A stretch of 64,000 nt of DNA from Niastella vici (GTDB taxonomy: Bacteria > Bacteroidota > Bacteroidia > Chitinophagales > Chitinophagaceae), in contig NZ_LVYD01000051.1 of the NCBI RefSeq assembly GCF_002077945.1, positions 62,001-126,000 of the forward strand, given 5' to 3'. Under the pieces are notes generated by a model. The model had not been told where the DNA came from and searched no databases. It was given only the letters and a program-made list of their open reading frames with translations. Position numbers and translations under genes: made by a program. Positions 6,463 through 26,600 of this stretch are shown here, one piece after another. Position 1 is the first letter of the stretch; every line of letters begins with the position of its first letter.

Positions 6463-6653
6463 GCCATAACCATTTTATTGTAGGCAAAAAAGTGAATGCG
6501 CTATAAGCAGCATCACTATTTGTTTATCGTGTATTGATACCGAATCAGGCAAAGTACATTGTACAACAAACCATGGGCGTATGCAGGCAACTACTGTATA
6601 CGATGTAATTGCTGTTTGTTGTAGTGTGCCTTTACCTGTACAAAAAGTATTTC

Positions 6654-11021: not shown

Positions 11022-12169
11022 TCCCCGATATGAAGAATTTGTTTATATATAGTATTGTTTTGTTTTTATCAGCTTCCTGCTCCTCCTCAACAGAAGAGAA
11101 AGCCGCAGCGCCGGAAAAGGCAACCGATGAGAATGCCGTAAGCTTAACGGAAGCACAAATAAAAAATGCCGGTATTGAGACCGGGGCCATACAATCGCAA
11201 AACATGAACTCCGTATTAAAAGTGAACGGGGTTGTAGATGTACCGCCGCAGAATATTGTATCGGTGAGCTTCCCGCTGGGGGGATATCTGAAACATACAA
11301 ACCTGTTGCCCGGTATGCATGTGAGCAGGGGAGAGGTCATTGGTACCATTGAAGACCAGGGGCTGGTGCAATTACAACAGGATTACCTGATGGCCCAGGC
11401 CCGGTTGCATTTTCTGCAGCAGGAGTATGACCGGCAAAAAGAATTAAGTGAGCAACAGGTAAGCGCCGCCAAAACCTTTCAACAGGTGCAGGCCGATTTT
11501 GCGGCGCAGAAAGTGTTGGTAAAAGGCTTTGGGGAGAAACTGCGGTTGATAAATATTAACCCCGCCTCTTTGAATGAGAATAACATTTCGCGCAGCGTAC
11601 CGGTTTATTCGCCCATCAATGGTTTTGTGTCGAAAGTAAATGTAAACATCGGCAAGTTTGTGAATGCTACCGATGTGTTGTTTGAGCTCATTAATCCCGA
11701 TGATATTCATGCGGCCCTCACCGTTTTTGAAAAAGACCTGTCGAAGATAAAGGTGGAGCAACTGGTGAAGGTATCGTTTGTTGATGAGCCCGGTAAGGAA
11801 TACGATTGTGAAGTGATACTGGTTACCCGTAATGTGGATGTTAACCGCAGCGGTACCATTCATTGCCATTTCAAGACAAGGCCCAGGAACCTGTTGCCCG
11901 GTATGTTCCTGAACGGATCGATCCATATTGAAAATGTACCCGCGCTTACGGTGCCCGAAGAGGCCGTAGTGCGGTATGGCAATAAGGAATACATTGTACA
12001 GGCTACAGGGGAGAACAAGTTTCAGCTGGTGGCTGTGGAAACAGGTATCCGGGAAAATAAGCGCGTAGCCGTTAGTTCAACCAGCACGGAGCTTTCGGGT
12101 ATGCAGGTGGTCACTAAAAATGCGTATGCGGTATTGGGTAAAATGAAGAATACGGCGGAAGAAGAATAG
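11018..12169 (+). CDS. czcB: RND efflux periplasmic adaptor (membrane fusion) lipoprotein, CzcB-like
   Basis: Membrane-fusion protein linking the RND pump to its outer-membrane channel. The ATG at 11018 overlaps the pump stop codon by 4 bp (translational coupling). An internal ATG at 11030 (MKNLFIYSIVLFLSASC) is an alternative start, and either gives a signal II peptide with lipobox LSAS-C. Domains: barrel-sandwich (lipoyl-like) halves around 70-110 and 190-215, an alpha hairpin with Gln/Glu-rich heptads between (about 110-180), beta-barrel and membrane-proximal parts to 383. It follows the CzcA-OMF fusion, so the three pump functions sit in two polypeptides. Confidence 0.9.
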   Translation: MIPDMKNLFIYSIVLFLSASCSSSTEEKAAAPEKATDENAVSLTEAQIKNAGIETGAIQSQNMNSVLKVNGVVDVPPQNIVSVSFPLGGYLKHTNLLPGMHVSRGEVIGTIEDQGLVQLQQDYLMAQARLHFLQQEYDRQKELSEQQVSAAKTFQQVQADFAAQKVLVKGFGEKLRLININPASLNENNISRSVPVYSPINGFVSKVNVNIGKFVNATDVLFELINPDDIHAALTVFEKDLSKIKVEQLVKVSFVDEPGKEYDCEVILVTRNVDVNRSGTIHCHFKTRPRNLLPGMFLNGSIHIENVPALTVPEEAVVRYGNKEYIVQATGENKFQLVAVETGIRENKRVAVSSTSTELSGMQVVTKNAYAVLGKMKNTAEEE

Positions 12170-12174
12170 TTGAC

Positions 12175-12272
12175 AGTTTAAAGTTTACAGTTCAAAGTTA
12201 AGCCTTCGCTGCGCTCAGGGGTAATAAGCAATTGGGGTACCTGTCGAAACCGTGGACTGTAAACTTTAAACT
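12175..12272. repeat. Inverted heptamer repeat between czcB and cupin gene
   Basis: AGTTTAAAGTTTACAGT (12175-12191) and its exact reverse complement ACTGTAAACTTTAAACT (12256-12272) flank a 64-base loop. Each arm is itself made of 7-bp words (CAGTTTA, AAGTTTA, CAGTTCA). The right arm overlaps the stop codon of the convergent cupin gene, so a role as bidirectional terminator is plausible, although no T-run follows. Confidence 0.7.
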
Positions 12273-12583
12273 CTGTAATCTTCCCGTACCGGCGAAAAGG
12301 CATCCAGTACTTTAACCGCGGTACGCGCATAAGCACTATGCGGAACATTGCCGGGGATCACATGCACCATGCCGGGTGTCAGCAACATTTTTTCACCGCC
12401 GATAACCATTTCCAGTTCTCCTTCCATGATAAACGTGATCTGTTCATGCGGATGGCTGTGTTCGGGTAACTGTGCACCGGGTTCAATATCTACAAACGAC
12501 AGGGTCATGGTATCGCCATGTACAAAGCGGCCGTATAAACCCGGTACTATCACTTTGCCTTTTACGTCATTAAGATGTTGCAT
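12266..12583 (-). CDS. Cupin-domain protein
   Basis: A 105-residue single-domain cupin. The metal-binding motif 1 reads PEHSHPHEQITFIMEGELE (His44/His46 and a Glu-type ligand set) and motif 2 reads PGNVPHSAYA (about 77-86). Small cupins of this type act as isomerases, dioxygenase-like enzymes or ligand binders; the substrate cannot be read from sequence. It starts 23 bp after the stop of the ATP-grasp-like gene on the same strand, so the two are probably co-transcribed. That suggests a role in the same pathway. Confidence 0.8.
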   Translation of the reverse strand: MQHLNDVKGKVIVPGLYGRFVHGDTMTLSFVDIEPGAQLPEHSHPHEQITFIMEGELEMVIGGEKMLLTPGMVHVIPGNVPHSAYARTAVKVLDAFSPVREDYRV

Positions 12584-12606
12584 AATGAGGTTTTTATGTA
12601 AATGAA

Positions 12607-13800
12607 TTAGCGTTCAATAAAAGCGACGCTGCCGCCCACCCATTGTTTATCCTTGTTATACGACACGCCTATCATTTTGCCTTTGCTTAAACGGGCGAGG
12701 TTAATGACAGGTTGCGGCCGCTCCCAACCCTTTTTCCATACATACATGATCCTGATCTCTGCCTTGGCGGGAACGTCGGGCGTTTCAATGATATCGGCAT
12801 ATTGCACTTTACGTTGTAAGATCCAGTTTTGCGGGTCGTCTATTTTCTCAATGTCGGCCGGCGTTACATCGATCACCACGCCCTGTCCGGCAAAGGAGAA
12901 TAAAGGTTTTAAGACATAGTTCTCCAGGTCGGCAGGTATTTGTTTTATTTCATTCAGAAAATAGGTAGCCGGTATGTACGGATGATGAAGGAATGGCAGG
13001 GTATACTTGCTGATGCGGTAAAACCAGTTGGGATGGGGCACCCATTGTACATTCAGCTCCTGGGTAATATCGGTAAAATGGCCCAGCGTATCTTTCTTTG
13101 CACGCAGCTCATCGAATATAACGCGGTTGTAGATACGCTTTATGGCCGTTTTTTTGCCATCGCGCATATAGTACAGGTCTTTTCCTTCCTGAATCAATTC
13201 GGTAATACAAACCGGTTGTATGCCCAGGTAATCCTGCGTGCAATAAAAATCGATGCGGGTTTTTTGTTCGTGTGGTTTTATTTCGAGCAGAATGGTATTC
13301 TCAACCGGCACATCACCGGTGATCACTTCTTTTAACAGCTGCAAATACGTTTCGCGGGTATGACCATTCATGTACTGGCTGTAGTTTTCCGGAACAGGAA
13401 AATATTTCCGGAGCAGATCGGGGTAAAATACCTGAAAGCCAAAGAGGGTAGGGAAGCCCTGCATTTCAATCAACCGGGGTTCAGGTTGTTGTTCGTCGTT
13501 CAGGCAAACACCAAAATCGAAACAGAGCAGCTCGCAGTGATCGCTTTCATTGGGAACATGTTCGCCGGGTGGAATGGCCGGTTCGGTATATTGTTTAAAT
13601 GAAGGATCAGTGATCACATCAATGATATGCTCACAGGCCTCGATCATTTGACCGGCAAATTGTTTATCGACAAATACTGGTGTTTCTGCTAACCTGAATT
13701 GAATGGCGCCGGGGTATTTACTGTTGAGGTCTTTTAAAAATGCTTCGTACTGCTTATCGGTGAAAGATTCATTATACGCTTTCCGTAAACCGGGAACCAT
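12607..13800 (-). CDS. ATP-grasp-like protein of unknown substrate
   Basis: A 397-residue soluble protein that I do not recognise by name. The C-terminal half looks like an ATP-grasp ligase: YVLKPLFSFAGQGV (about 295-308, P-loop-like Lys and glycine turn), NWILQRKVQYA, AEIRIMYVW (Glu/Arg metal and phosphate contacts), VINLARLSKGKM and a final GG. The N-terminal region contains LLCFDFGVCLNDE and RLIEMQGFP, like the substrate-binding part of circularly permuted ATP-grasp proteins. ATG at 13800. The neighbouring cupin and amidotransferase genes on the same strand suggest a role in making or modifying a small amide or peptide. The ATP-grasp assignment is inference from motifs. Confidence 0.6.
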   Translation of the reverse strand: MVPGLRKAYNESFTDKQYEAFLKDLNSKYPGAIQFRLAETPVFVDKQFAGQMIEACEHIIDVITDPSFKQYTEPAIPPGEHVPNESDHCELLCFDFGVCLNDEQQPEPRLIEMQGFPTLFGFQVFYPDLLRKYFPVPENYSQYMNGHTRETYLQLLKEVITGDVPVENTILLEIKPHEQKTRIDFYCTQDYLGIQPVCITELIQEGKDLYYMRDGKKTAIKRIYNRVIFDELRAKKDTLGHFTDITQELNVQWVPHPNWFYRISKYTLPFLHHPYIPATYFLNEIKQIPADLENYVLKPLFSFAGQGVVIDVTPADIEKIDDPQNWILQRKVQYADIIETPDVPAKAEIRIMYVWKKGWERPQPVINLARLSKGKMIGVSYNKDKQWVGGSVAFIER

Positions 13801-13833
13801 GCTGATACAATTTAAACGAAAGGTACGAATTAG

Positions 13834-13968
13834 TTACTGGTTACCGATTGCCAGTTACCTGGAAATGCAGGTTACAAGTTTCAAGATTCAGGTTACATGG
13901 CTCTTGTAACTTGCAACCTGAAACCTGGAACAGCTTCTTCATTGACCATTCACCATTCACGTTACAGG
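13834..13968. repeat. Heptamer-period repeat array
   Basis: Nearly the whole gap upstream of the ATP-grasp-like gene is 7-bp words. The units are TTACTGG (13834), TTACCGA (13841), TTGCCAG (13848) and TTACCTG (13855), then AGGTTAC (13869 and 13890). The inverted forms TTGTAAC (13904), TTGCAAC (13911), CTGAAAC (13918) and CTGGAAC (13925) follow, and finally ATTGACC, ATTCACC, ATTCACG (13941-13961). The last unit overlaps the stop codon of the glutamine amidotransferase gene. Confidence 0.75.
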
Positions 13969-14798
13969 CTTCCTACTTTTTGAGAGGATTCAATAGCTAT
14001 ATTAAGAAAGTTCGGAAGAATATGAGAATATGTATATAAGATCTTATCCGGGTCATTAAGCTGTTCTATCATGGATTGCCATTTCTCGAACCCATGATTT
14101 TTGATTACCATCTGCTTCTTGTCGTCCCGTTGCAGGTAACGGCTCATCCCCGGCGCATCGGCCTCAGGATGAAATTGCGTGCCCACCATATAGTCGTTGA
14201 ACCGGATGCCCATGATGGCCCGCTCCAACGGTACGTGCGGCCGTTCTTTTTCTAATGCGAGTATGGAAGCGCCTGTTTGCTGCAATTGTTCGGGGGAAGG
14301 TTCTACTACCTGGTAATTGCGGCTGTCTACTGCATAAAAGGGATCCTGTAATCCGGTAAAAATAGGTTCCTCTTTTCCGCCTTCCATCATGTGAATGGGA
14401 AAAACGCCAAAAGCGGTGGATTTGCGTTTGGTTACAGTGGCTACTTTAAAATACTGAACCGCCAGCTGAAAGGAGTGACAAATAAAATACACATGTTTTT
14501 TGGGACCATCTCCGCGCAGGTTATATTGTTCCAGCTCATGCACCCATTCAAAATACAAGCGTTCCCACTCGTGGCCACTGATCAGCGGCGAACCGGGGCC
14601 GCCGGAAGAAATATATATATCGTGGTGTAAATCAGGCAACTGGCACTTAAGCCGCACATCAAATTCGGTACATACGAGATGTAAACCATGGGCATTACTA
14701 TACTGCTGCAAAATTTCGCGGATGCATCGCATTCCCTCATTTACCTGCCCTTCATACAAGTCAAGAAGGGCCACCCGTATGGTTGTTGGTTTATTCAT
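13962..14798 (-). CDS. Class I glutamine amidotransferase-like protein (GMP synthase-like)
   Basis: A 278-residue member of the triad glutamine amidotransferase fold. The oxyanion turn SSGGPGSP, the nucleophile elbow VYFICHSFQLA (Cys near 110) and the second catalytic pair GTQFHPEAD (His then Glu, near 215) are all present, so it should hydrolyse glutamine to deliver ammonia, or act as a peptidase-like relative. The frame extends to a TTG at 14810, but ATG 14798 (MNKPTTIRVALLDLYEG) is the more natural start. It lies upstream of the ATP-grasp-like and cupin genes on the same strand. The partner that receives the ammonia is probably one of the ligases nearby (inference). Confidence 0.82.
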   Translation of the reverse strand: MNKPTTIRVALLDLYEGQVNEGMRCIREILQQYSNAHGLHLVCTEFDVRLKCQLPDLHHDIYISSGGPGSPLISGHEWERLYFEWVHELEQYNLRGDGPKKHVYFICHSFQLAVQYFKVATVTKRKSTAFGVFPIHMMEGGKEEPIFTGLQDPFYAVDSRNYQVVEPSPEQLQQTGASILALEKERPHVPLERAIMGIRFNDYMVGTQFHPEADAPGMSRYLQRDDKKQMVIKNHGFEKWQSMIEQLNDPDKILYTYSHILPNFLNIAIESSQKVGSL

Positions 14799-14906
14799 AG
14801 TATACTGCAAAAATAATATATAGACCGCACAGATGCCAGTCTATACAAAAATTTGAAAGCATTTCACAGCATAAAACAATATAACCCTGGAAATGTTACA
14901 GCCTGA

Positions 14907-15575
14907 TTATTTCACCAGTGTTTTCATCATTTCATCTGCCACCAGCATATTGCCCTTGTCGTTGAGGTGAACGCCATCTGAAGTAAGGATGCCTCTGTCC
15001 TGGTTCTGTGCATTATTGGCCAGGTTATAGGCCAGGAAAGCTTTGCGCAGATCAACCAGTGGGCAATTATTTTTAGTGGCAATGCTGCGAACGATATTGG
15101 CATATTTGTTCAGATCGCCGTCGAGTTCATTGGAGAAATCGGTTTTTTCACCAATGGCTGCCGGTGTGCACATAACCACCTTTATATTTTTTGCCTGCAG
15201 TTTTTTGATGATGGCATTATAGAATTGCTCAAATTTGGGCGCATCGGTACCGGTGCCGCCTTTCTTGTGCCAAACGTCATTTACGCCAATCCAGATCACC
15301 ACCGTGTTGGGGTCTTTTGCCAGCACATCATCTTCCAGGCGCAAATACAGATCGGTCACTTTATTGCCGCTGATGCCGGCGCCTACCAGGTCATATTGGT
15401 CCTTTAATCCTTTTTGTGCAATCAGGTTGCCTAACACCGTTATATAGCCGTTAGGTGCAACCCCGGCCTGGGTAATGGAATCTCCAAAGAAAACAATACG
15501 TTGTTTTTGTTGCATACCGGTAAAACTTACCAATGTAATAGCTATGAATGAAGAAATGTACAGTAGCAGTCTCAT
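14907..15575 (-). CDS. Secreted SGNH/GDSL-family hydrolase
   Basis: A 222-residue exported esterase/lipase-fold protein. Signal peptide at 1-22 (LLLYISSFIAITLVSFTG). The four SGNH blocks are visible: FFGDSITQAG (nucleophile Ser, about 31-40), the Gly of block II in GAGISGNKVTDL, GVNDVW with the block III Asn (about 97-102), and DGVHLNDKGN with the Asp-x-x-His pair near 205. It probably deacylates a carbohydrate or lysophospholipid-type ester in the periplasm; the substrate is not readable. Stand-alone gene, ATG at 15575. Confidence 0.88.
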   Translation of the reverse strand: MRLLLYISSFIAITLVSFTGMQQKQRIVFFGDSITQAGVAPNGYITVLGNLIAQKGLKDQYDLVGAGISGNKVTDLYLRLEDDVLAKDPNTVVIWIGVNDVWHKKGGTGTDAPKFEQFYNAIIKKLQAKNIKVVMCTPAAIGEKTDFSNELDGDLNKYANIVRSIATKNNCPLVDLRKAFLAYNLANNAQNQDRGILTSDGVHLNDKGNMLVADEMMKTLVK

Positions 15576-15901
15576 AATTAATAAGTTTAGAAAAGTAAAA
15601 AGGCACTAATATGTACCATATAATGGGCAGCGAATCTAATGACTAATTTTTGATATTTATTGGGTAGTCCCCGCGTTTTTGCACAAATTGACCATAGTCA
15701 CGTTTTCGGGTGAAAGCACATAAGTGCCTGACGGTCTTCATGATAAATTCTTTTTTCGCCGCAATCCGTAGTTTTTAAATAGTTTGTCATAATTTAAGCG
15801 GCATAAATAGCCAACGGTTGCTGTAAGTAGTAGGTACAACTGAAAAATCGCGGAAATCAGGCGATCGAACCGATCCGCACCATTTATTAAAAACTAATTG
15901 C
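15576..15901. other. Gene-free gap upstream of the ethanolamine permease
   Basis: This 326-bp divergent region separates the SGNH hydrolase from the ethanolamine unit. I looked for a cobalamin riboswitch (conserved B12 box), since EutBC needs adenosylcobalamin, and found none. No tandem repeat is evident; there are only modest AT-rich stretches that could carry promoters for both sides. Confidence 0.5.
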
Positions 15902-17197
15902 ATGCATAGCAACCCTTCATTAAATAAAGTTTTAAGACCCGTGCACTTATGGGCGCTGGCGGTGGGCCTGGTTATCAGCGGCGAATATTTTGGCTGGAAC
16001 CTGGGTTGGAAGGTAGCCGGAACAGGTGGCTTTTTGATCGCTACCGTACTCGTCACCATCTTTTACATAACATTTATTTTTAGTTATACCGAATTAACGG
16101 CTGCCATACCACAGGCCGGTGGCCCCTTTGCCTATGCGCATAAAGCATTAGGGCCGCTGGGTGCACTGGTTGCCGGTTATGCCACCCTGGTAGAATTTTT
16201 ACTGGCGCCGCCGGCTGTTGCTTTTGCGCTCGGCAGTTATGTACATTTTTTGTATCCATCACTGGGCGTTATTCCGGTGGCCATAGGTTGTTTTGTGGTA
16301 TTCACCCTTATCAATTTTCTGGATATCAAAGAATCGGCCCTCTTCTCGCTCGTGGTCACCTTGCTGGCTGTTGCAGAGTTGTTATTGTTTATGGGAATAG
16401 TGGCGCCCGGTTTTCGTTGGCAGAATTTTAAACAGGATGCCATGCCCTTTGGCTGGGGTGGCGTTTTTGCCGCTTTGCCATTTGCCATCTGGTTTTACCT
16501 GGCCATTGAAGGGGTGGCCATGGTGGCCGAAGAAGTGAAAGATCCGCAACGCACCATTCCGCGTGGTTATATTTATGGCATTGTAACGTTGGTGTTGCTG
16601 GCCCTGGGCGTCATGTTCTTTACCGGTGGGGTTACCGACTGGCATAAGCTGGCTTCTATTGATTATCCTTTACCAGAGGCGATCAGCATTGTGCTGGGAA
16701 AACAAAATGGCTGGACGAAGGTGTTTGCGGGCATCGGATTATTTGGTTTGATCGCTTCCTTCCATGGTATCATTATCAGTTACTCGCGGCAGTTGTATGC
16801 CATGGCCCGAAGTGGTTATTTACCTGCGGTACTGGCTACTGTAAACAAGCGTTTTAGAACGCCCCATATAGCACTGCTGGTTGGCGGTGGCATCGGGATT
16901 ATTGTGGTGCGTTTTGGTAATACGAATGATGCCATTACCCTGAGCGCCCTGGGGGCATTGATGTTATATATCGTAAGCATGATCAGTTTACTGGTTTTGC
17001 GGCGCACACACCCCAACATGGAACGTCCATTCAAAGTACCTTTGTATCCATGGTTTCCATGGACGGCCCTGGTACTGGCGGTTGTTTGCCTCATCGCTAT
17101 TATCTGGTACAATCCGAAGTTGAGTATTTATTTCTTTGGTGCATTGCTTGTACTGGCTGCACTGTTTATGGCATTTCGCAGGAAGACTCATCAATGA
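15902..17197 (+). CDS. eat: Ethanolamine permease (APC superfamily)
   Basis: A 431-residue amino-acid/polyamine/organocation transporter with about twelve transmembrane helices. The consensus entrance motif VGLVISGEYFGWNLGW (about 20-36) has the broken-helix Gly-Glu-Tyr seen in ethanolamine permeases. AAIPQAGGPFAYAHKALGPLGA and EGVAMVAEEVKDPQRTIPRGY (about 200-220) are APC signatures. It imports ethanolamine across the inner membrane by ion coupling. EutB begins 13 bp after its stop, so a permease-eutB-eutC operon is clear and supports the substrate. Confidence 0.9.
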   Translation: MHSNPSLNKVLRPVHLWALAVGLVISGEYFGWNLGWKVAGTGGFLIATVLVTIFYITFIFSYTELTAAIPQAGGPFAYAHKALGPLGALVAGYATLVEFLLAPPAVAFALGSYVHFLYPSLGVIPVAIGCFVVFTLINFLDIKESALFSLVVTLLAVAELLLFMGIVAPGFRWQNFKQDAMPFGWGGVFAALPFAIWFYLAIEGVAMVAEEVKDPQRTIPRGYIYGIVTLVLLALGVMFFTGGVTDWHKLASIDYPLPEAISIVLGKQNGWTKVFAGIGLFGLIASFHGIIISYSRQLYAMARSGYLPAVLATVNKRFRTPHIALLVGGGIGIIVVRFGNTNDAITLSALGALMLYIVSMISLLVLRRTHPNMERPFKVPLYPWFPWTALVLAVVCLIAIIWYNPKLSIYFFGALLVLAALFMAFRRKTHQ

Positions 17198-17210
17198 TCA
17201 TTCATGATTT

Positions 17211-18590
17211 ATGGCTTATCGCTATACCATACAACATCATACTTACACCTTCGATACACTGACCACCCTGCTGGCCAAAGCAAGCCCCTTTCGTTCGGGC
17301 GATGCATTGGCCGGGCTGGCAGCGGCCGATTATAAAGAGCGGGTGGCGGCGCAATTGGCGCTCGCTGATGTACCGCTCAGGAATTTTTTGCTGGAACCGG
17401 TTATCCCCTACGAACAGGATGAAGTTACCCGGCTGATCATTGATTCACACGATGCGGCCGCCTTTGCACCGGTAGCCCATTTCACCACCGGGCAGTTCCG
17501 CGACTGGTTGCTGAGCGATGAGGCCGACACGGTAACGCTGCGCAAGCTGGCGCCGGGTGTAACACCTGAAATGGTAGCTGCCGTTTCAAAGCTGATGCGC
17601 AACCAGGACCTCATCAGTGTGGCCCGGAAATGTGAAGTGATTACCCGCTTTCGCAATACGCTTGGGTTAAAAGGCCGGTTATCGGTACGGTTGCAACCCA
17701 ATCACCCCACAGATGATCCAAAAGGAATTGCCGCCAGTATAGTTGACGGATTATTGTATGGCAGTGGCGATGCAGTGATCGGCATTAACCCGGCTACTGA
17801 TTCCCCCGCACATGTACTAACGCTTTTGCACATGCTCGATGCCATCATTGAGCGGTTTAAGATACCCACGCAAAGTTGCATTTTAAGCCATGTAACTACT
17901 TCCTTACAATTGGTGCAGCAAAAAGCGCCGCTCGATCTGGTGTTTCAATCCATTGGCGGTACAGAGAAAACCAATAAGAGTTTTGGGATAAACCTGGCAT
18001 TGCTGCAGGAAGCCTGGGAGGCGGTTTTGTCGTTACAACGCGGCTCCCTGGGCAATAATGTAATGTATTTTGAAACGGGGCAGGGGAGCTCTCTTTCTGC
18101 CAACGCCCATGAAGGGGTCGATCAGCAAACCTGTGAGGCCCGGGCCTATGCGGTGGCCCGAAAATTCTCTCCCTTACTGGTGAATACCGTGGTTGGGTTT
18201 ATTGGTCCGGAATATTTATTCGATGGAAAACAGATCATTCGCGCAGCGCTGGAAGACCATTTTTGCGGCAAGCTGCTGGGCCTGCCCATGGGTGTTGATG
18301 TATGTTATACCAATCATGCCGAAGCCGACCAGGACGATATGGATAACCTGCTTACGCTGTTGGGCGTTGCGGGCTGCAATTACATCATGGGCATTCCCGG
18401 TGCAGATGATATTATGCTGAATTATCAGAGTACTTCTTTTCACGATGCGCTGTATGTGCGCAAGGTGTTGGGCTTAAAGCCGGCGCCGGAGTTTGAGCAA
18501 TGGCTGGTAAAACAGGGGATCATGAATGAGGGAGGAACTTTATTGCCGGTTGAAGAGAAGCATAAGTTGTTGCAATTGATCAATCAGTAA
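17211..18590 (+). CDS. eutB: Ethanolamine ammonia-lyase large (alpha) subunit
   Basis: Adenosylcobalamin-dependent radical enzyme subunit that converts ethanolamine to acetaldehyde and ammonia. The 459 residues fit the family. Features include SPFRSGDALAGLAA at the N-terminus, RLQPNHPTDDPKGIAASIVDGLLYGSGDAVIGINPAT (about 163-200, barrel active-site region), FETGQGSSLSANAHEG and GLPMGVDVCYTNHAEADQ near the C-terminal substrate and cofactor contacts. ATG at 17211, 13 bp after the permease. No EutA reactivase, EutE aldehyde dehydrogenase or microcompartment shell genes occur in the window, so acetaldehyde handling is encoded elsewhere. Confidence 0.95.
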   Translation: MAYRYTIQHHTYTFDTLTTLLAKASPFRSGDALAGLAAADYKERVAAQLALADVPLRNFLLEPVIPYEQDEVTRLIIDSHDAAAFAPVAHFTTGQFRDWLLSDEADTVTLRKLAPGVTPEMVAAVSKLMRNQDLISVARKCEVITRFRNTLGLKGRLSVRLQPNHPTDDPKGIAASIVDGLLYGSGDAVIGINPATDSPAHVLTLLHMLDAIIERFKIPTQSCILSHVTTSLQLVQQKAPLDLVFQSIGGTEKTNKSFGINLALLQEAWEAVLSLQRGSLGNNVMYFETGQGSSLSANAHEGVDQQTCEARAYAVARKFSPLLVNTVVGFIGPEYLFDGKQIIRAALEDHFCGKLLGLPMGVDVCYTNHAEADQDDMDNLLTLLGVAGCNYIMGIPGADDIMLNYQSTSFHDALYVRKVLGLKPAPEFEQWLVKQGIMNEGGTLLPVEEKHKLLQLINQ

Positions 18591-18679
18591 GTTTATAAGT
18601 TTATACGTTATTGAGTTCGTTAGTTTAAGTTCATAAGTGTTCGAGAGTTTAACTGAAAAACTAAAAGACTGAAAAACTT
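18589..18679. repeat. Twelve-unit octamer array filling the eutB-eutC gap
   Basis: From the last two bases of the eutB stop codon to the eutC GTG start, the sequence divides into 8-base words. AAGTTTAT occurs twice (18589-18604), ACGTTATT and GAGTTCGT follow, then TAGTTTAA, GTTCATAA, GTGTTCGA and GAGTTTAA (18621-18652). The end switches to CTGAAAAA, CTAAAAGA, CTGAAAAA (18653-18676). No gene or terminator is seen. The array forms the whole intercistronic spacer of two subunits of one complex. Confidence 0.75.
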
Positions 18680-19459
18680 GTGAAGGAGATTCAAAAACCA
18701 ATAGTACAAACAGACCCGTGGGCTGCATTAAAAGAATTTACTGCAGCAAGAATTGCATTGGGAAGAACCGGTACCGCCGAACCATTGCAGGCCATGCTGC
18801 AATTCAGGCTGGCGCATGCCAATGCCCGCGATGCGGTGTATGCTGTATTTGATCAGCAGCGCCTGTTGCAGGAATTACGATCATTGCAGCAGGCCGTATT
18901 TGTTTTGCATACCCAGGCTGCCGGCCGTAGCGAATACCTGCAGTATCCTCACAGAGGCAGACGCCTGCTGGCAAAAGCTGCCGACGAACTGAAATCATTT
19001 AACAGTACCAGTTATGATATTTGTTTGGTGCTGGCCGATGGTTTATCGGCCACCGCTATAAATAACCACGCGATTCCGGTACTGAAATTATTATTACCCC
19101 TTTTTGAAAAGTATGGCCTGTCCCTTGCTCCCATTTGTTTGGTACAGGAAGGAAGAGTGGCCATTGGCGATGAATGCGGCAGTCTGTTACGCGCCAGGCT
19201 GGTGGCGGTGTTAATAGGGGAGCGGCCGGGATTGAGTTCTCCCGATAGTTTAGGCGTTTACCTCACTTATCAGCCTGTACCGGGATTAACTGATGAGTCG
19301 CGCAATTGCATCTCGAACATCCGGCCCGAAGGATTGAATTACACCGCTGCTGCGGAAAAGATATGCTCGCTTATCAGAGAATCGTTACGCCTTCAACTTT
19401 CGGGCGTGGGCCTGAAAGACAATACAACAGCCTTACCCGGTAATGAAGAGCACGGGTAG
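18680..19459 (+). CDS. eutC: Ethanolamine ammonia-lyase small (beta) subunit
   Basis: Small subunit of the B12-dependent ethanolamine ammonia-lyase, which contributes to cobalamin binding. At 259 residues it is full length. The start is GTG at 18680; DPWAALKEFTAARIALGRTG near residue 12-31 is the canonical EutC N-terminus. RRLLAKAADELKSF, DICLVLADGLSATAINNHAIPVL (about 113-135) and GERPGLSSPDSLGVYLTY (about 176-193) are the conserved blocks. It is separated from eutB by 89 bp that are entirely octamer repeat, unusual for subunits of one enzyme. Confidence 0.95.
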   Translation: MKEIQKPIVQTDPWAALKEFTAARIALGRTGTAEPLQAMLQFRLAHANARDAVYAVFDQQRLLQELRSLQQAVFVLHTQAAGRSEYLQYPHRGRRLLAKAADELKSFNSTSYDICLVLADGLSATAINNHAIPVLKLLLPLFEKYGLSLAPICLVQEGRVAIGDECGSLLRARLVAVLIGERPGLSSPDSLGVYLTYQPVPGLTDESRNCISNIRPEGLNYTAAAEKICSLIRESLRLQLSGVGLKDNTTALPGNEEHG

Positions 19460-19572
19460 CCGTGTTGTTCATTATTAAGTTTACATATTGGAATATTGGG
19501 GACGTTGGATAGAAGGAAATCAAAGGAAACAGGAGGTAGAAAACAGGAAGCGGGATTCATGAACCGGGAATT

Positions 19573-19630
19573 ATTCACCACTCACCATTGACCCCGCCCG
19601 GATGACCGGTCGGACGGGCATTCACCAGTC
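19573..19630. repeat. Short heptamer run with GC-rich inverted repeat
   Basis: TTCACCA, CTCACCA and TTGACCC (19573-19593) continue the 7-bp pattern and match units at 13941-13961. They are followed by an inverted repeat GCCCG (19596-19600) / CGGGC (19615-19619) with a GACCGGTC palindrome between. It sits just downstream of the lipoprotein gene (minus strand) and could terminate it; no clear T-run. Confidence 0.5.
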
Positions 19631-19631
19631 A

Positions 19632-20165
19632 CTACTTTTGGAGCTTTACTTTGAACTGTCCATTTGAGATAATGGCAGAATCACTATTCGGATCAGTACT
19701 ATTGATAAACAGTTTTCCTTTAAAAGTACCGCTTAACGTAGTGGCCGTGATCTCTGTAAAGGTGATCTGGAACGGATTGGTATCATCATACCCACTGGCA
19801 AAGATCTTGGTGGCCTCTGTTGTGTTGGGATTGTAAATACCTGCCAGGAAGTAATCAGTAGTGGGGTCCGTTTCCTTGTAAGTGCCTGTGTTAAAAGGGA
19901 TGGAGAGCTGGATGGTAAAACCCATGCTTTCATAATTGCTGGCATCAGCTACTGCTTTTCCAAAAACGGAATAACTTGTAATGCCGCCACCCAGGTCTGA
20001 CTTGGCTGCAGCTGCATTCACATTAAAGGTTTTGTCGACGCCGCCTATCTTGCATTTGAGAAAGTATTGCCCCTGATCTTCCTCTACACTTTTTTCCTTA
20101 CCACACGACGCTACGAAGATCAGCAATAGCAGCACAGGCCAGCCATTAACCAGATATTTTTTCAT
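19632..20165 (-). CDS. Hypothetical lipoprotein
   Basis: A 177-residue protein with a signal II peptide: MKKYLVNGWPVLLLLIFVAS-C, lipobox Cys at about residue 21, followed by a charged linker (GKEKSVEEDQGQ). The mature part is a beta-rich domain beginning YFLKCKIGGVDKTFN. Its alternating Thr/Ser and aromatic residues, and the closing ITFTEITATTLSGTFKGKL and GQFKVKLQK, resemble the small beta-sandwich lipoproteins common in Bacteroidota. No enzyme motif is visible and the function is unknown. It is convergent with eutC. Confidence 0.75.
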   Translation of the reverse strand: MKKYLVNGWPVLLLLIFVASCGKEKSVEEDQGQYFLKCKIGGVDKTFNVNAAAAKSDLGGGITSYSVFGKAVADASNYESMGFTIQLSIPFNTGTYKETDPTTDYFLAGIYNPNTTEATKIFASGYDDTNPFQITFTEITATTLSGTFKGKLFINSTDPNSDSAIISNGQFKVKLQK

Positions 20166-20342
20166 ACCGGAACAGATTTAACCAAAGGTATTTTATTTCG
20201 GGAATTTACAGTGAGCGTAGGGACGGGATTGGTGGCTATAACGGTCAAATGTGAGTAAATATTGTACTATCAGGGCAATAAGCGCCGGAAGCGACAATAA
20301 CGACCGTTGATATGTTATGGTAAATGTTAATATCTGATGCTG

Positions 20343-20450
20343 TTACCAGTTACCAGTTCCCCGTTACCTGGCAAAAAATTTGGAGAACCCGGTTATATGC
20401 AGAGTGATCGAATTTCAAGTCCAGGTATCTGGTACCCGGTAACTGGCAAC
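20343..20450. repeat. Heptamer repeat element with inverted arms
   Basis: The left arm TTACCAG (20343-20349), TTACCAG (20350-20356), TTCCCCG, TTACCTG (to 20370) is mirrored by the right arm AGGTATC, TGGTACC, CGGTAAC, TGGCAAC (20423-20450). The arms are roughly reverse complementary, separated by about 52 bp of unique sequence. The last unit touches the stop codon of the carboxylate-amine ligase gene, so the element lies directly at its 3' end and upstream of the lipoprotein gene. Confidence 0.75.
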
Positions 20451-21562
20451 TATATCCCCGCCAGGAACTGGCTGTGGATGTAATCAACCACGTGTACGAG
20501 GCTGCCTGTTTGCTGAAATACTTTTAGCTGGCGGTCGGCCCCGGTGCCTTCTTCCATTAATTTGGTGATATAGTTAATGGCATGGCGGCTGCCCAGCTCA
20601 TCAACCACGTCATCCACAAAATCGAGCAGCTCGTAGATCAGCACCCGGGTATTGATCTCTTCTTCTTTTCCAAAATCAATGAGTAAACCGTCGATGCCAT
20701 AGCGGCTGGCCCGCCATTTATTTTCGTTTATGAGGGCGCGTGAGTATTGAATGAAGTTCAGGTTCTGTAACCGGAGTTTATATATTTTGGCGCATACACC
20801 CTGGAACAACGCGGCAATAGTAATGGTTTCCTGCACCGTTAAAGGAACATCACAGATCCTGAATTCTACCGTGTTGAAAAATGGATGCACGCGAAGGTCC
20901 CACCATATCTTTTTGGCATTGTCGATGCAATTCGTTTTTACCAGCAGCTTTACAAAATTATCATAGTCCTCGATGGTATCGAAAGTTTCGGGTATGCCAG
21001 TGCGGGGGAACTTGTCGAATACTTTGGTGCGGTACGATTTGTAACCGGTATTTCTGCCTTCCCAGAAGGGTGAATTGGTGCTGAGTGCATAAATATGGGG
21101 TAAGAAGTACCGGGTTGAATTGGCGATGTGATTGGCCATTTCCCGGCTTTCCATGCCCACATGTACATGTAAGCCGAAGATGAGGTTGCTGCGTGCCGCA
21201 TCCTGCAATACATCCAGTATTTCCTTATACCGGGCATGATCGGTTATAAGCTGGCTTTCCCAATGACTGAACGGATGGGTGCCTGAAGCCCCTACCCAAA
21301 AGCCAAGATCACCGGCAATATGGGAAATGGTGCGGCGCAGGTTGCTTACATCTTTATGGGCTTCGTCAACATTACGGCAAACATCGGTTCCCACTTCCAC
21401 TACGGCCTGGTGCATTTCGGCTTTCACCTTGTCTTTAATTACCTTTTGGCCTTCGGTCACGATCTTTTGCTGATGACTCTTCAGCTCGCGGCTGGCGGGG
21501 TCAAGCACCATGTATTCTTCTTCAATGCCAAGCGTAAAATGCGAAAAGTTGATGTTTGCCAT
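20450..21562 (-). CDS. GCS2-type carboxylate-amine ligase (YbdK-like)
   Basis: A 370-residue glutamate-cysteine ligase family 2 enzyme. The fold joins an amine to a gamma or alpha carboxylate with ATP. Diagnostic residues: LGIEEEYMVLD (12-22, Mg-binding Glu triad), VEVGTDVCRNV (about 55-65), NLIFGLHVHVGM (about 125-136) and WWDLRVHPFFNTVEFRICDVP (about 224-244). E. coli YbdK has weak glutamate-cysteine ligase activity, but the natural substrates of this branch are unknown. It starts 32 bp after the stop of an ATP-grasp gene on the same strand; the pair is probably an operon building an amide-linked small molecule (inference). Confidence 0.9.
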   Translation of the reverse strand: MANINFSHFTLGIEEEYMVLDPASRELKSHQQKIVTEGQKVIKDKVKAEMHQAVVEVGTDVCRNVDEAHKDVSNLRRTISHIAGDLGFWVGASGTHPFSHWESQLITDHARYKEILDVLQDAARSNLIFGLHVHVGMESREMANHIANSTRYFLPHIYALSTNSPFWEGRNTGYKSYRTKVFDKFPRTGIPETFDTIEDYDNFVKLLVKTNCIDNAKKIWWDLRVHPFFNTVEFRICDVPLTVQETITIAALFQGVCAKIYKLRLQNLNFIQYSRALINENKWRASRYGIDGLLIDFGKEEEINTRVLIYELLDFVDDVVDELGSRHAINYITKLMEEGTGADRQLKVFQQTGSLVHVVDYIHSQFLAGI

Positions 21563-21594
21563 TTATTGATTCTTAGTTTGCAAATGTATCTGGT

Positions 21595-22593
21595 TCAATC
21601 TATTCTTCCTGTCTCTGTTACTAATTCCTCATTTTTTATTTCTCCCAGCGGCATCCGGTGAACACTTCGTTTGGTGAATTCACCCCAGGTTAAGTTGTCG
21701 CGCCCCGGATCATGCATAAGCGCTCTTTCAATAGCATAGGTGGCGGCGGTATCAACCACCCATTCAAAATTATCATCGCCTACGCTGGGCCGGTCGGCAT
21801 CGGGGGCGGGGTTGCAAAAATCGATGGCATAGGGAACGCCGTCGCGAACAGCGAGTTCAACAGTATTAAAATCGTACCCCAGGAATTGATTGATGCGGCA
21901 TACGATGTCATGCATCTGGTGAGCCAGTTCGGGTGATGGCGTAAAATCACATTTATACCGCAGGTGATGCGGGTTACGCGGTTCATAAGGCATGATATGC
22001 ACATATTTACCGCCAATGCAATAGCAACGGTAGTATTGTTCAAAAACAATTTCTTCCTGTAACAGCATTACCAGCTGGCCGGTTTCTTTATGTATGCGGA
22101 AGAATTCTTCCCTGTTATGCAGTTTGTAAACGTTTTTCCAGCCGCCGCCGGCAAAAGGTTTCATATATGCCGGAAAGCCCACATACGAGAAAATGGTTGA
22201 CCAATCGAGCGGATAAGCCAGGTTGGCGAATGATTCGGCACTGGTTTCGGCCGGCAGTTCGTAGGAGGGAAGGATCACCGTTTTAGGCACGGGTACGCCG
22301 ATCTGTACGGCCAGGCAGTTGTTGAAGAATTTTTCATCGGCGCTCCACCAGAAAGGATTGTTGATGACGGCGGTACCGCAAATAGCTGCATTTTTTAAAA
22401 ATGACCGGTAAAAAGGAACATCCTGCGAAATGCGATCGATGATGACATCATATTCAGCCGCGGCGCCTTGTATTACTTTGTCAATATGAACAGGTTCTGC
22501 AATAATATCGGGGGTGTTCCGGCTGTTCACGCGTTCAATAAAAGCCATCGGGAAAGTTCTTTCCCGGCCGAACAGAATACCGATCTTTTTCAT
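21595..22593 (-). CDS. ATP-grasp domain protein (RimK-like ligase)
   Basis: A 332-residue predicted ATP-dependent carboxylate ligase. N-terminal Rossmann-like half (MKKIGILFGRERTFP, YDVIIDRISQDVPFY), then the ATP-grasp: YVGFPAYMKPFAGGGWKNVYKL (about 137-158, Lys plus glycine-rich loop), LLQEEIVFEQYYRCYCIGGK (about 178-197, adenine hinge and Arg), and a metal-binding end GYDFNTVELAVRDGVPYAIDFCNPAPD (about 238-264). Product and substrate are not readable. It lies immediately upstream of the GCS2 ligase and divergent from an esterase. This neighbourhood resembles the amidoligase/ATP-grasp gene sets that Iyer, Aravind and colleagues described for peptide-like metabolite synthesis. Confidence 0.82.
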   Translation of the reverse strand: MKKIGILFGRERTFPMAFIERVNSRNTPDIIAEPVHIDKVIQGAAAEYDVIIDRISQDVPFYRSFLKNAAICGTAVINNPFWWSADEKFFNNCLAVQIGVPVPKTVILPSYELPAETSAESFANLAYPLDWSTIFSYVGFPAYMKPFAGGGWKNVYKLHNREEFFRIHKETGQLVMLLQEEIVFEQYYRCYCIGGKYVHIMPYEPRNPHHLRYKCDFTPSPELAHQMHDIVCRINQFLGYDFNTVELAVRDGVPYAIDFCNPAPDADRPSVGDDNFEWVVDTAATYAIERALMHDPGRDNLTWGEFTKRSVHRMPLGEIKNEELVTETGRID

Positions 22594-22721
22594 ACTAGCA
22601 CATTTGGGTGATTCAATTTTCCTGCCACACTAACCTGGTTACCAAATTTATCGGAAGGTTCGTGAATAAACAAATCGTACAATTCCTGTACATTTAACGT
22701 TACCACTATTGCATATTTTCC

Positions 22722-22729
22722 TAATTTTG
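22722..22729 (+). promoter_or_regulatory. -7 promoter element of the esterase gene
   Basis: TAATTTTG fits TAnnTTTG. Transcription would begin at or next to the ATG at 22736, implying a leaderless or nearly leaderless mRNA. Consensus match only. Confidence 0.4.
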
Positions 22730-22735
22730 GCGGCT

Positions 22736-23563
22736 ATGCAAACAGAACTCAGTACCGGAGTAATGGTAGAAACGGTAGAATTGCCATCTGAAGCGCTCCA
22801 ACGTACCATAACGATCAATTTTTACAGTCCCGCCCATATTCCTGCGGATAATCAGCTCAGCCTGTTATTACTGAACGACGGCCAGGATATTGAAGCCATG
22901 GGCTTTGATAAAATGCTGGCCTATTTGCTGGAAACAGAGGCTATTAAGCCGATGTTGTGTGTGGGTATTCATTGTGGCGAAGAAAGGATGCTTGAATATG
23001 GCATGATCAGCAGTGCCGATTTCAAAGGCCGGGGCGCGAAAGCTGGTTTGTACCGTCAATTCATTCTGGAAGAATTATTGCCATTTATACATGCGCGTTA
23101 TAATCAATTAGTTTTTAATGAAATGGCATTTGCCGGTTTTTCATTAGGCGGGTTAAGCGCGTTGGATCTTGTTTGGAACCATCCCGAGGTATTTTCGAAA
23201 GTGGGCGTATTTTCCGGTTCTTTGTGGTGGCGGTCGAAAGATAAAAAGGAGAAAGACTTTAATGAGGCCAACGACCGGTTGATGCATCGCCAGATACGGC
23301 AGGGAAAATATCAGCCCTCGCTGAAATTCTTTTTCCAGTGTGGTGAGCTCGATGAAACGGAAGACCGCAATGGAAATAAAGTGATCGACTCCATCGACGA
23401 TACTATCGATATAATGCGCGAACTGCTGGCTAAAGGATGGAAAGAAGGAAAAGATATGCGTTATCTGCAATTGCCCGATGGCAGGCATGATGTTCGTTCC
23501 TGGGCCAAAGCATTACCCGTGTTCCTGAAATGGGGATGGCGGAAGAAAGTTCAACATTCATGA
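22736..23563 (+). CDS. Putative esterase of the alpha/beta-hydrolase fold (enterochelin-esterase/EstD type)
   Basis: A 275-residue cytosolic hydrolase with no signal peptide. The nucleophile elbow is AFAGFSLGGLSALDL (G-x-S-x-G, Ser near 134). The acid lies in ECG-type GELDETEDRNGNKVIDS, and the catalytic His in LPDGRHDVRSWAKALP near the end. ATG 22736 was chosen over a TTG at 22709 because TAATTTTG at 22722-22729, a perfect -7 element, ends only seven bases before that ATG. It is divergent from the ATP-grasp and GCS2 genes and may hydrolyse their product or trim a protecting ester (inference). Confidence 0.82.
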   Translation: MQTELSTGVMVETVELPSEALQRTITINFYSPAHIPADNQLSLLLLNDGQDIEAMGFDKMLAYLLETEAIKPMLCVGIHCGEERMLEYGMISSADFKGRGAKAGLYRQFILEELLPFIHARYNQLVFNEMAFAGFSLGGLSALDLVWNHPEVFSKVGVFSGSLWWRSKDKKEKDFNEANDRLMHRQIRQGKYQPSLKFFFQCGELDETEDRNGNKVIDSIDDTIDIMRELLAKGWKEGKDMRYLQLPDGRHDVRSWAKALPVFLKWGWRKKVQHS

Positions 23564-23639: not shown

Positions 23640-26600
23640 TTAGTTAAACATGTAACGGATTCCGAACTGCATTTGCCAGCGCGATCCAATACCTGTGCTA
23701 TTGTTAAAGCTATTGGTACGGGGAGCCTGGTTGGTTGCATCTGCGTATGGGAATGAGAATAAAGGTGTTTTATTATCAGCTGCCATACCTTCAAATGTCA
23801 ACAATTGATAGCCTGAAGAGTTGCTGCTGAGGGTTGGCGTTTTAACCAGTCCCCAGTTTTTATTAACGAAGTTGCCTACGTTAATGATATCCAGGCTCAA
23901 ACGCAGGGTATGTTTATCATTATCACCTTTGTTTTTGGTATAGAAATAAACATCCTGCGTGATATTCAGGTCAAGTTTTTTATACCAGGGGAAAACCCAC
24001 GCATTCGCCTTGGCATATTGACCGCGGTGTGAATTCAGGTAATTGTCCTGTTTGATGAAGGCATCTAACTGGTTCCAGATCTGTGAAGCAGTTCTGGGAT
24101 CTGCAGTGGTACCGGTGGTTGAACCGGTATGTGTAGAGGTGCTATAAGAACCTGCATCGATCAAATTGATCTCGCTTTGGTTTCTTGGAATATACACCAG
24201 GTCGTTGGTGTTACCATCACCGTTCAGGTCGTTTGTATAAATATAAGAGCTTACACCAGCAGGAGCTGCTTCAAAGATAGCACCGATTGACGTAGCAAAA
24301 TATTTGGCATATTCAAACCGGTAAGAAGCAACTGCGATCACGCGGTGCGGTTGGTAGTAGCTTGCATAGGCCAGGTTATCGGTATTGGGGCTTTTGCTGC
24401 TAACCGATCTGGCGCTCCATAATGAAGAAGCGGTGCTGCCACCTTCTGCTACGTTTCTGGCATCCATGTACGTATAAGCAAGGCTGGTATACAGGTTTTT
24501 GAACGTTTTCTCAACTCTTGCTGTTATGGTATAGGCATATCCTTTTTTAGAATTCTTCATTAAAATAGCAGTTCCCAATGCGGGGTCCTGCAAGGTATTG
24601 CCTGTAAAGCTGCTGATAGAAGGCTTATTGTAGTAATACTTGTTACTGGTATACTGTGCATACGTGTTGGAAGTAGAAGAAGTGGAATTAAGGTAGCCGG
24701 TAAAATACCTGTACCTGTTATCTGCTCCTTCCATAGCATAACCATTGTCTTCTTTTAAATTCAGGTTGGAATAATACACTGAATTGATGTCTTTAGAAAA
24801 GCTTCCTTCCAAAGTAACTACCCAGTCATTGGCAAATTTCTTGTCAATGCCCAGGTTGGTCTTTAATACAGTAGGATATTTAAAGTTTTTATCAACCAGG
24901 GCTACGCTGTAGCTAGTATTGGCGCCACCGGTAGAAGGCTTATAACCAAATGCTACGTTGCTGGTTTGTACTGCTCCAAACTGAATACCGTTGTTGCTGG
25001 CCTGGTTGCTGATCCATACAAATGGTGGTGGGCCAGAGAATATACCGCCACCGCCACGGATCTGCAGTGATTTATCACCCAAGGCATCCCAGTTAACACC
25101 AACGCGGGGAGAAAGGATCAGGGCATTGCCCGGGCCTTTACCAATGTTATATGACTTTCCGTCCTTGAACGTTAATGCATCGAAATATGGATTGTCGGTG
25201 AATTGTTGTTTGTAGAAGGTCATATCAGCCCGCAAACCCAGCGTTACCGTGAGGTTCCTGGTCATACGCCATTTATCTTGCGCAAATACGCCTAATTCAG
25301 TAGAACCGGCATACGCCCAGGGGAAAGCTCCACCAGGTAAAGCAGAATACTGAAGATAATAGTTCCTTGCATTGGCAGTACCATTCAGCAAGCTGTTCCT
25401 GAAATCGTTCAGGCTGTTAAACTGGTAAACACCAGCGTAACCGGGTGCAAATGCATTCTGGTATTTTCTATAATATCCCTGGAACCCGGTTGTAATTTCA
25501 TGGGCGCCTTTAAATATTTTGAAAATGTCAGATACCTGGTACACGTCGGTATTCAGCTTGTTGTTGTAAGTGTACATTTCATAGCCAAATGAGGTAAAAA
25601 TGTTACCTGAACCATCGAGGATGTCAACAAATGGCATGGTATCGTTAGGGGAGTGCGATACCCTGAAATCCCTTAAAGCAGTATAACCTACCTGAAATTT
25701 ATTCGACATGGAATTGCCAAAGCGGGAGTTCAACTCGGCAATGAAAATATTGAAGTTGTTGTTGATGCCATAACCGGCTGCCCAGAAAGGCATTGCTGTG
25801 TTATTAGCTGAACCCGAACCGCTGGTTACCAGTGACGATCCGTTGTTTGGCCGGCTTGTGCTGGCAAACTGATCGGCATAAGACTTCAGGTAATTGTATT
25901 TAAGGGTAAGGGTATGGTTCCTGTTAATGTTCCAGTCAATCTTGATAGTCATCTTCTCGCTCCTGGTGAGGAAGTTATAACCCTGATAAGCGCCTGGATT
26001 ATAGCCGCCAGTCTTGGGTGAACTATTCAGCAAAGAAATCAATGCTTCCAGTGAATCTTTATTTGCTTTTGAAACGCTGCCGGTTACCGGTGGATTGCTG
26101 GCATCAGAAGCCGTGTAACTGGTGGCGGGTACTTCCTGGCGTACTTTTTCAGCGCTAATGAAGAAGAATAATTTGTTTTCAATTATAGGACCGCCAACTG
26201 AAAAACCCAGCAGATTATAGGTAAGAGGTGTTTTTGGAGCAGTGGCATTTTGTACCTTATATCCCTGGGTGTTTTCATTTTTTGTGTACAGGTACGCTGA
26301 GCCTTTGAATCTGTTGGTGCCGCTGCGGGTTACCGAGTTGATACCTGCACCGGTAAATCCGCCTTGTGTTACATCGTAGGGTGAAACGTTCACCTGTATT
26401 TGCTCAATGGCATCGAGACTGATGGGTTGTGAGTTGGTTTGTCCACCCAATACAGACGAAAGACCGAATGAGTTGTTGAAATTGGCGCCATCAACCGTCA
26501 TGTTGTTATACTGGTTACTGCGGCCGCCGATGTTCAAACCATTTGAAGTGGGTTCAAGTTTGGTAAAGTCTTGTAATGACCGGCTGATGGTAGGGAGTCT

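Follow-up and report, generated by a model that had tools for sequence, protein, structure and literature searches.

A conserved set of carboxylate-amine ligase genes in Bacteroidota that may build a small peptide-like amide

Do the amide-ligase genes that lie scattered over about 11 kb of the Niastella vici genome belong to one pathway, and what could such a pathway make? The question is raised by a stretch of 64,000 nucleotides (contig NZ_LVYD01000051.1, positions 62,001 to 126,000; hereafter the window) of the host genome (G000; 10.06 Mb, 134 contigs). A preliminary description of the window had proposed that a GCS2-type ligase, two ATP-grasp proteins, a class-I glutamine amidotransferase, a cupin and an esterase, dispersed around an ethanolamine operon, cooperate in the synthesis of a peptide-like metabolite. 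All the genes named there are present, with open and intact reading frames. As corrected here, the recurring members are a RimK-type ATP-grasp protein (RimK), a GCS2/YbdK-type ligase (GCS2), a class-I glutamine-amidotransferase-like protein (GAT), a second ATP-grasp protein (ATPg2) and an esterase of family PF00756 (EST). The ligases, GAT and the esterase are co-inherited, and other members of the phylum carry them as a single operon, whereas neither the inclusion of the cupin and of the SGNH esterase nor the link with ethanolamine was supported. The first four, referred to as the core genes, very probably serve one pathway. It appears probable, at a lower level of confidence, that this single pathway, split in the window by insertions, builds a small soluble peptide-like amide by one ATP-dependent ligation after another, much as glutathione and glutathionylspermidine (Gsp) are made.

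Gene order in the window and in the phylum

In the window, ATPg2 (12607-13800) and GAT (13962-14810) are found on the minus strand in a block of the order cupin-ATPg2-GAT-SGNH, with gaps of 23, 161 and 96 bp. The ethanolamine permease gene, eutB and eutC follow on the plus strand, then a lipoprotein-like gene, and then GCS2 (20450-21562) and RimK (21595-22593), both on the minus strand and 32 bp apart, with EST (22709-23563, plus strand) divergent from RimK.

Two samples of genomes were searched, namely one draw of 98 genomes (97 genera) of the host's family and 198 Bacteroidota genomes, each at least 90% complete. In addition, hand-picked loci were mapped (20 family loci, which make 21 with the window, and 40 phylum loci from 33 genomes), along with 19 additional loci and 9 loci from five RimK-free family genomes; the maps use a simple longest-open-reading-frame choice, by which genes can be missed. 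Adjacency was counted over the genomes holding both genes of a pair, using the best match where ATPg2 is present in two copies (G067, G075).

Within the family, 66 of 67 genomes have RimK and GCS2 on the same strand and no more than 2 kb apart. EST is divergent from RimK at a distance of at most 2 kb in 59 of 67 genomes, and GAT and ATPg2 are equally close in 46 of 71, with both genes on one strand in 44. Of the 64 family genomes with the complete set, 19 have all four core genes within 14 kb, six of them even within 4.4 kb. Outside the family, pairs on the same strand and within 2 kb were counted for GCS2 and ATPg2 in 32 of 50 genomes, for GAT and ATPg2 in 23 of 33, for RimK and GCS2 in 32 of 52, and for RimK and GAT in 31 of 43.

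The run RimK-GCS2-GAT-ATPg2 is consecutive in 10 of the 33 hand-picked phylum genomes, and in eight of these ten loci a second PF00756-like hydrolase gene (EST2) stands at the RimK end, once with two genes between; the compact operon of other families has the order EST2-RimK-GCS2-GAT-ATPg2. In six loci from four families, chosen because the maps showed the overlap, the end of GAT overlaps the start of ATPg2 as ATGA. Because the compact order occurs within the host's family too (L052, L053, L054 and L055), the dispersed, three-unit layout of the window is most simply seen as a derived, broken-up form of the compact operon.

Co-inheritance of the core genes

Co-occurrence profiling, which had been proposed as a check on the six genes, was run in both samples: the core genes do co-occur, but independent events are few. 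In the mapped family loci, the cupin and the SGNH esterase are not steady companions. The family search gave 72 matches for GCS2, 71 for ATPg2, 70 for RimK (one of them distant), 74 for GAT, 67 for EST and, as a control, 20 for EutB (one of them a remnant). A 57-residue EutB remnant (G071) and a RimK match of 35% identity (G014) were dropped before counting; the GCS2 gene of G057 and the ATPg2 gene of G095, which are split over contigs, and a GAT fragment in G076 were counted as present. All four core genes were then found in 64 of the 98 genomes, none in 24, three in 10, and one or two in no genome. RimK is present in all 67 EST-bearing genomes, and two genomes (G006, G018) have the four core genes without EST. 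GCS2 occurs once per family genome, one split gene aside, and is single in the host; ATPg2 is duplicated only in the two genomes mentioned above.

In the phylum sample, ATPg2 was found in 60 genomes, GCS2 in 62, GAT in 50 and RimK in 72, the last count including distant matches in G014, G181 and G251. GCS2 and ATPg2 are together in 56 genomes. Six genomes have GCS2 without ATPg2, and their GCS2 is diverged (33-44% identity, compared with at least 51% for the rest); four of them (G117, G197, G205 and G216) carry RimK and GAT too. The four genomes with ATPg2 and no GCS2 all belong to one family, f2. In families f3, f5 and f9, GCS2 and ATPg2 are both present or both absent among the genomes listed, the set-free ones being listed in part.

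Variant forms of the set were also encountered. Two f2 loci (L172, L173) have EST2-RimK-GAT-ATPg2 together without GCS2, a third (L171) has RimK-GAT-ATPg2, and in the fourth f2 genome (G269) the set genes are dispersed. In a distant lineage (L211-L213; genomes G109, G117 and G205), RimK and GAT flank an ATP-grasp-like protein, k9, and a PF00756 protein follows GAT. One of the three k9 proteins scores over the CP_ATPgrasp_2 cut-off and two score below it. The alignment of k9 with ATPg2 is collinear over 258 columns and displays similar E-x-N/Q, YRR/YNR and KP motifs; the profile probability was, however, 11.8% (E 0.0025), and the two were not accepted as one family. It is by inference only that k9 may be called the functional counterpart of ATPg2. 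The distant RimK-like proteins mentioned above (L218 in G014, L219 in G251 and L220 in G181) have no other core genes nearby.

Several observations weigh against a single amide-forming pathway. BshC, a protein of bacillithiol synthesis, is present in 95 of the 98 family genomes irrespective of the core set, and a BshC tree was built for 60 of the 98 (the set-free G017, with no BshC, and G032, with a split BshC, were left out). One branch of this tree has 20 of the 22 set-free genomes on the same side, and three changes suffice to explain where the set is present, which amounts to about three independent events within the family, and independent-pair tests on it could not reach significance. 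Moreover, the set is often in two parts, GCS2 and ATPg2 lying within 10 kb of each other in just 20 of 69 family genomes. The ligases are also separable: GCS2 is absent from all four ATPg2-bearing f2 genomes, GAT from 21 of the 60 ATPg2-bearing phylum genomes, and RimK together with EST from five family genomes that retain GCS2, GAT and ATPg2. The data point to no particular substrate or product and to no dedicated transporter or regulator, and the shared fold of ATPg2 (see below) leaves its substrate unfixed. On the same tree, the distribution of EutB requires 11 changes, and two genomes within the set-bearing part (G014, G093) are without all four core genes, the distant RimK match of G014 aside. 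Since the Fisher values, which are uncorrected, ignore descent, and the tree shows few independent events, our case rests on adjacency.

So few gains and losses would also be expected if the genes were unrelated and simply held together by inherited gene order, and riboflavin genes (9 of 21 family loci) and TonB-receptor-like genes (12 of 21) recur near the set as well. This explanation appears nevertheless very improbable, considering that these four genes are neighbours in many other families of Bacteroidota, that the family genomes with a dispersed layout retain them, and that no genome of the host's family holds just one or two of the four.

The enzymes and their candidate product

Proteins were assigned to families with Pfam and NCBIfam models at their curated cut-offs. 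From its sequence, GCS2 is classed as a YbdK-type carboxylate-amine ligase. It matches PF04107 (202.9 bits) and exceeds the cut-offs of TIGR02050 (290.9 vs 176.4 bits) and of the NCBIfam carboxylate-amine ligase model PRK13515 (519 vs 371 bits), and its closest solved sequence is YbdK (1r8g, E 2.5e-57). The motif GhExE, given in a passage of PMC2588565 as the Mg/ATP signature of GCS2, reads GIEEE here (residues 12-16), and G12, E14 and E16 are invariant in 15 sequences.

ATPg2, in contrast, is over the cut-off of no Pfam or NCBIfam model; the weak match to GSP_synth (PF03738) reached 12.5 bits, and 17.2 bits in the best of three relatives scanned, against a gathering score of 29.3. Its AlphaFold2 model (mean pLDDT 90.3) matched YgiC best (7uk8; Z 24.9, rmsd 3.6, 345 residues), followed by YjfC (Z 24.6), homoglutathione synthetase (3kal, 24.1), and the E. 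coli Gsp synthetase/amidase and human glutathione synthetase (2hgs), both at 23.9, with trypanothione synthetase (22.1) and Cp1B (9cjn, 21.6) further down. The matches form a block of 26 superfamily entries with Z of at least 19.7, after which come 3k1t, a putative gamma-glutamylcysteine synthetase (Z 12.5), and then, at 8.1 and lower, other ATP-grasp enzymes. All 24 Foldseek matches at E <= 0.001 likewise belong to the glutathione-synthetase/Gsp-synthetase superfamily, and the sole PDB sequence match of a phylum-wide ATPg2 profile was YgiC (E 0.0085). Residues E112, Q114, P117, K298, E348 and R350 do not vary among 16 sequences taken from throughout the phylum; E112-x-Q114 is similar to the E-x-N motif that provides magnesium ligands in glutathione synthetase. 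On the strength of its model, ATPg2 is predicted to be a ligase with the glutathione-synthetase/glutathionylspermidine-synthetase/YgiC ATP-grasp fold.

The structural matches of ATPg2 to 3kal and 2hgs, and the fact that GCS2 and ATPg2 are neighbours in many genomes, could suggest that the set makes ordinary glutathione, with GCS2 as glutamate-cysteine ligase, ATPg2 as glutathione synthetase and the rest as accessory proteins. GCS2 is indeed not far below two glutamate--cysteine ligase models (285.5 vs 332 bits for PRK13517.1-1, and 326.8 vs 409 for PRK13517.1-3). However, while over the cut-off of PRK13515, it is under that of all eight NCBIfam models named glutamate-cysteine ligase, and far under it for TIGR02048 of cyanobacteria (56.5 vs 249.05), TIGR01436 of plants (17.5 vs 463.15) and TIGR03444, EgtA (13.2 vs 370.8). 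In addition, RimK, GAT and the esterases would be surplus to need yet stay with GCS2 and ATPg2, the f2 genomes keep ATPg2 without GCS2, and the near-universal BshC of the family makes bacillithiol a likely thiol there already. We regard plain glutathione as unlikely to be the whole story; the pathway is apparently separate from that of bacillithiol.

GAT, classed by sequence as a protein of the class-I glutamine-amidotransferase fold (PF00117, 32.9 vs 22.8 bits), keeps the Cys-His-Glu triad, C111, H214 and E216 being invariant in 11 family sequences. It would be either a hydrolase partner of ATPg2 or its ammonia source. The former role, by analogy with the amidase half of the E. coli Gsp synthetase/amidase, has about an even chance of being correct, and the latter is a possibility that we hold only tentatively. 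The hydrolase role is put slightly ahead because an unrelated M29 peptidase occupies the operon slot of GAT in two families: in G186 and G149, where GAT was not found, locus maps and family searches placed an M29 metallopeptidase gene between GCS2 and ATPg2 (L181, 9296-10324; L185, 9348-10367). The idea of GAT as a mere ammonia donor is thereby weakened. Among the ATPg2 loci of 10 of the 21 GAT-free genomes, M29 was present in these two, a PF07969-like amidohydrolase gene was beside ATPg2 in three (G137, G153 and G198; the family was checked for G137), and neither was noted in the GAT slot of the other five.

The RimK-like protein is below all family cut-offs (29.6 vs 143.4 bits for TIGR00768). 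Its structure model, of middling confidence (pLDDT 71.8), matched RimK best (5zct; Z 18.4, rmsd 3.8, 259 residues), then LysX/ArgX and D-Ala-D-Ala ligases, and graspetide ligases were also among the matches. Membership in the R2K clade was rejected (Pfam R2K_2, 14.1 vs 26.2 bits), the structure, at that middling confidence, favouring RimK/LysX, and a RimK-type ATP-grasp amide ligase is predicted from the model. EST is an alpha/beta-hydrolase (PF00756, 91.7 bits). Five family genomes lack both RimK and EST and keep the other three, a distribution which suggests that EST belongs to the RimK step.

RimK adds amino acids to ribosomal protein S6. The ligases of the set might accordingly modify a protein with amino acids or a peptide tag, which the hydrolases would remove; RimK as the top structural match, the presence of LysX/ArgX and graspetide ligases among the others, and a ligase-hydrolase pairing that suits reversible tagging are all consistent with this. 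On the other hand, the 113 small open reading frames collected in 17 of 19 loci gave no cross-locus match at E <= 0.01 (very short or overlapped ones could escape), the YbdK-type, Gsp-synthetase-type and PF00756 partners would point to small substrates, and RimK has been lost from five family genomes that retain the other three core genes. Protein modification seems improbable to us, and the product is likely to be a free small molecule rather than a protein tag. With no small reading frame common to the 19 loci, a precursor of a ribosomally synthesized and post-translationally modified peptide and a carrier protein were both set aside.

Three different carboxylate-amine ligase folds (GCS2/YbdK, RimK-type and glutathione-synthetase/Gsp-synthetase type) are thus encoded in the set, along with GAT and one or two alpha/beta-hydrolases. 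A small peptide-like metabolite is favoured because three ligases and hydrolases are united in one operon, no small reading frame is shared, and the genes are mostly present in one copy per genome. In such a pathway, GCS2 would activate the gamma-carboxyl of glutamate to give a gamma-glutamyl amide, ATPg2 would couple a carboxyl of what GCS2 makes with an amino acid or another amine, RimK would attach a further amino acid, and EST would act on the product of the RimK branch. Whether or not the final product is a gamma-glutamyl compound is, in our estimate, evenly balanced.

Alternatively, the set might gamma-glutamylate an amine or peptide from the environment in order to degrade or salvage it, as in the gamma-glutamylated putrescine route, in which case GAT would be a gamma-glutamyl hydrolase. 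GAT-fold enzymes include gamma-glutamyl hydrolases, and some family loci have hydrolase genes between GCS2 and GAT, for a PF07969 amidohydrolase in 7 of 21 and for a PF01425 amidase in 4 of 21. Furthermore, a passage of PMC2588565 reports a carboxylate-amine ligase that adjoins a GAT-like thiol peptidase. Three ATP-consuming ligases would, however, be costly for one salvage route, and the maps of ten compact loci contain no oxidoreductase or permease gene between RimK and ATPg2; this explanation is quite unlikely.

The peptide-like amide pathway favoured here can be compared with known systems. Like the syntheses of glutathione, glutathionylspermidine and trypanothione, it combines a ligase of the GCS superfamily with one of the glutathione-synthetase/Gsp-synthetase fold, and an amidohydrolase paired with the Gsp-type ligase. 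Unlike them, it adds a RimK-type ligase and PF00756 esterases, its cysteine enzyme is a separate GAT-fold protein, ATPg2 is below the cut-off of the Gsp family and GCS2 below those of the glutamate-cysteine ligase models, and the hosts appear to have bacillithiol. YgiC and YjfC of E. coli, which a reference entry in PMC12568646 names as peptide-spermidine ligases, are closest to ATPg2 in structure, with Z within 1 of the glutathione synthetases, and no PDB entry other than YgiC was matched by ATPg2 in sequence; yet they share just 14-16% identity with ATPg2, which is under the GSP_synth cut-off and is set with two other ligases and GAT. In the fungal E-64 pathway, a passage of PMC12568646 presents Cp1B as one of two amide-forming enzymes, with homoglutathione synthetase, YgiC and YjfC as its nearest relatives in structure. 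Cp1B, which has the ATPg2 fold, and the amide bond synthetase Cp1D are, as described there, free-standing enzymes that act in turn on small molecules, as proposed here, but that pathway differs in having an epoxide-forming oxygenase and a second ligase of the ANL family.

At least two unrelated peptide ligases together with hydrolases in one conserved operon, as found here, also characterize the linked amidoligase sets predicted by Iyer, Aravind and colleagues. That linked peptide ligases make peptide-like metabolites is a known principle, restated in a passage of PMC4431377, and this particular set was not found described: among the titles listed by literature searches, made with the 2009 amidoligase paper of Iyer and Aravind outside their scope, none deals with the set, its modules or the ATPg2 fold.

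A more specific and rather doubtful extension would be a glutathione-like system of Bacteroidota that exists beside bacillithiol, in which the three ligases make a gamma-glutamyl tri- or tetrapeptide amide or amine conjugate, and the GAT-fold amidase and the alpha/beta-hydrolases degrade it. Because the set is kept across many families and is mostly single-copy, a coenzyme, stored conjugate or signal would suit it better than a one-off antibiotic. A three-ligase pathway present in about three out of ten sampled Bacteroidota (ATPg2 in 60 of 198) should leave a detectable metabolite, and with the compact operon the question of an unknown Bacteroidota metabolite comes down to an experiment on five genes. 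For the RimK-like protein and ATPg2, neither of which passes any Pfam or NCBIfam cut-off, the set supplies partners and a predicted activity.

Neighbouring genes

The genes for ethanolamine permease, EutB and EutC (15902-19459, plus strand; Pfam, NCBIfam) are bystanders. The suggestion that ethanolamine, or ammonia from EutBC, provides the amine is not borne out, EutB being rare (19 of 98 family genomes), weakly associated with the five recurring genes (phi 0.06 to 0.24; Fisher p 0.02 with GCS2 and 0.04 with GAT) and seldom near the set. It lies within 10 kb of a core gene only in the window, in G029 and, as a remnant, in G071, the next nearest case being at about 19 kb (G015). The eut genes inside the locus are whole in the window and in G029. 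In G071 (L042, at about 8404-8945), a decayed eut operon with the 57-residue eutB remnant and a shortened eutC occupies the same place. The three genomes form one supported group on the BshC tree, and the eut genes were probably inserted between GAT and GCS2 in their common ancestor, splitting the operon.

The cupin gene (12266-12583, minus strand; Cupin_2, 59.6 bits), just after ATPg2, and the GDSL/SGNH esterase gene (14907-15575, minus strand; Pfam) are occasional neighbours, each present in 5 of 21 family loci, and cannot be retained as members of the set. The lipoprotein-like gene (19632-20165, minus strand; Pfam) is another bystander, present among the 21 loci only in the window and G071.

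A search of six proteins against the PADLOC anti-phage defence models gave no match at E <= 0.001, and a role in defence was rejected on this basis.

The statement in the preliminary description that no transporter is seen may be too strong. At 6609-12169 (plus strand), the window holds an ACR_tran pump of the RND type with a C-terminal fusion to an outer-membrane efflux (OEP) domain, then a CusB/HlyD-like adaptor, and an RND pump with an adaptor is near the set in 7 of 21 family loci, although the riboflavin and TonB-receptor-like genes counted above recur there likewise. Beside EST, two long TonB-receptor-like proteins, judged as such by eye, are encoded in tandem on the minus strand (23640-27038 and 27456-30752).

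The amidohydrolase and amidase insertions are those of loci L043-L046, L049, L051 and L060, and the one copy of each that was read starts like a secreted protein. Finally, a pattern scan located a promoter-like TTTG-N20-TAAATTTG at 22643-22674 (minus strand), 50 bp upstream of the RimK start, where 0.06 TANNTTTG would be expected in the scanned interval on both strands; we take this pattern to be the promoter consensus of Bacteroidota.

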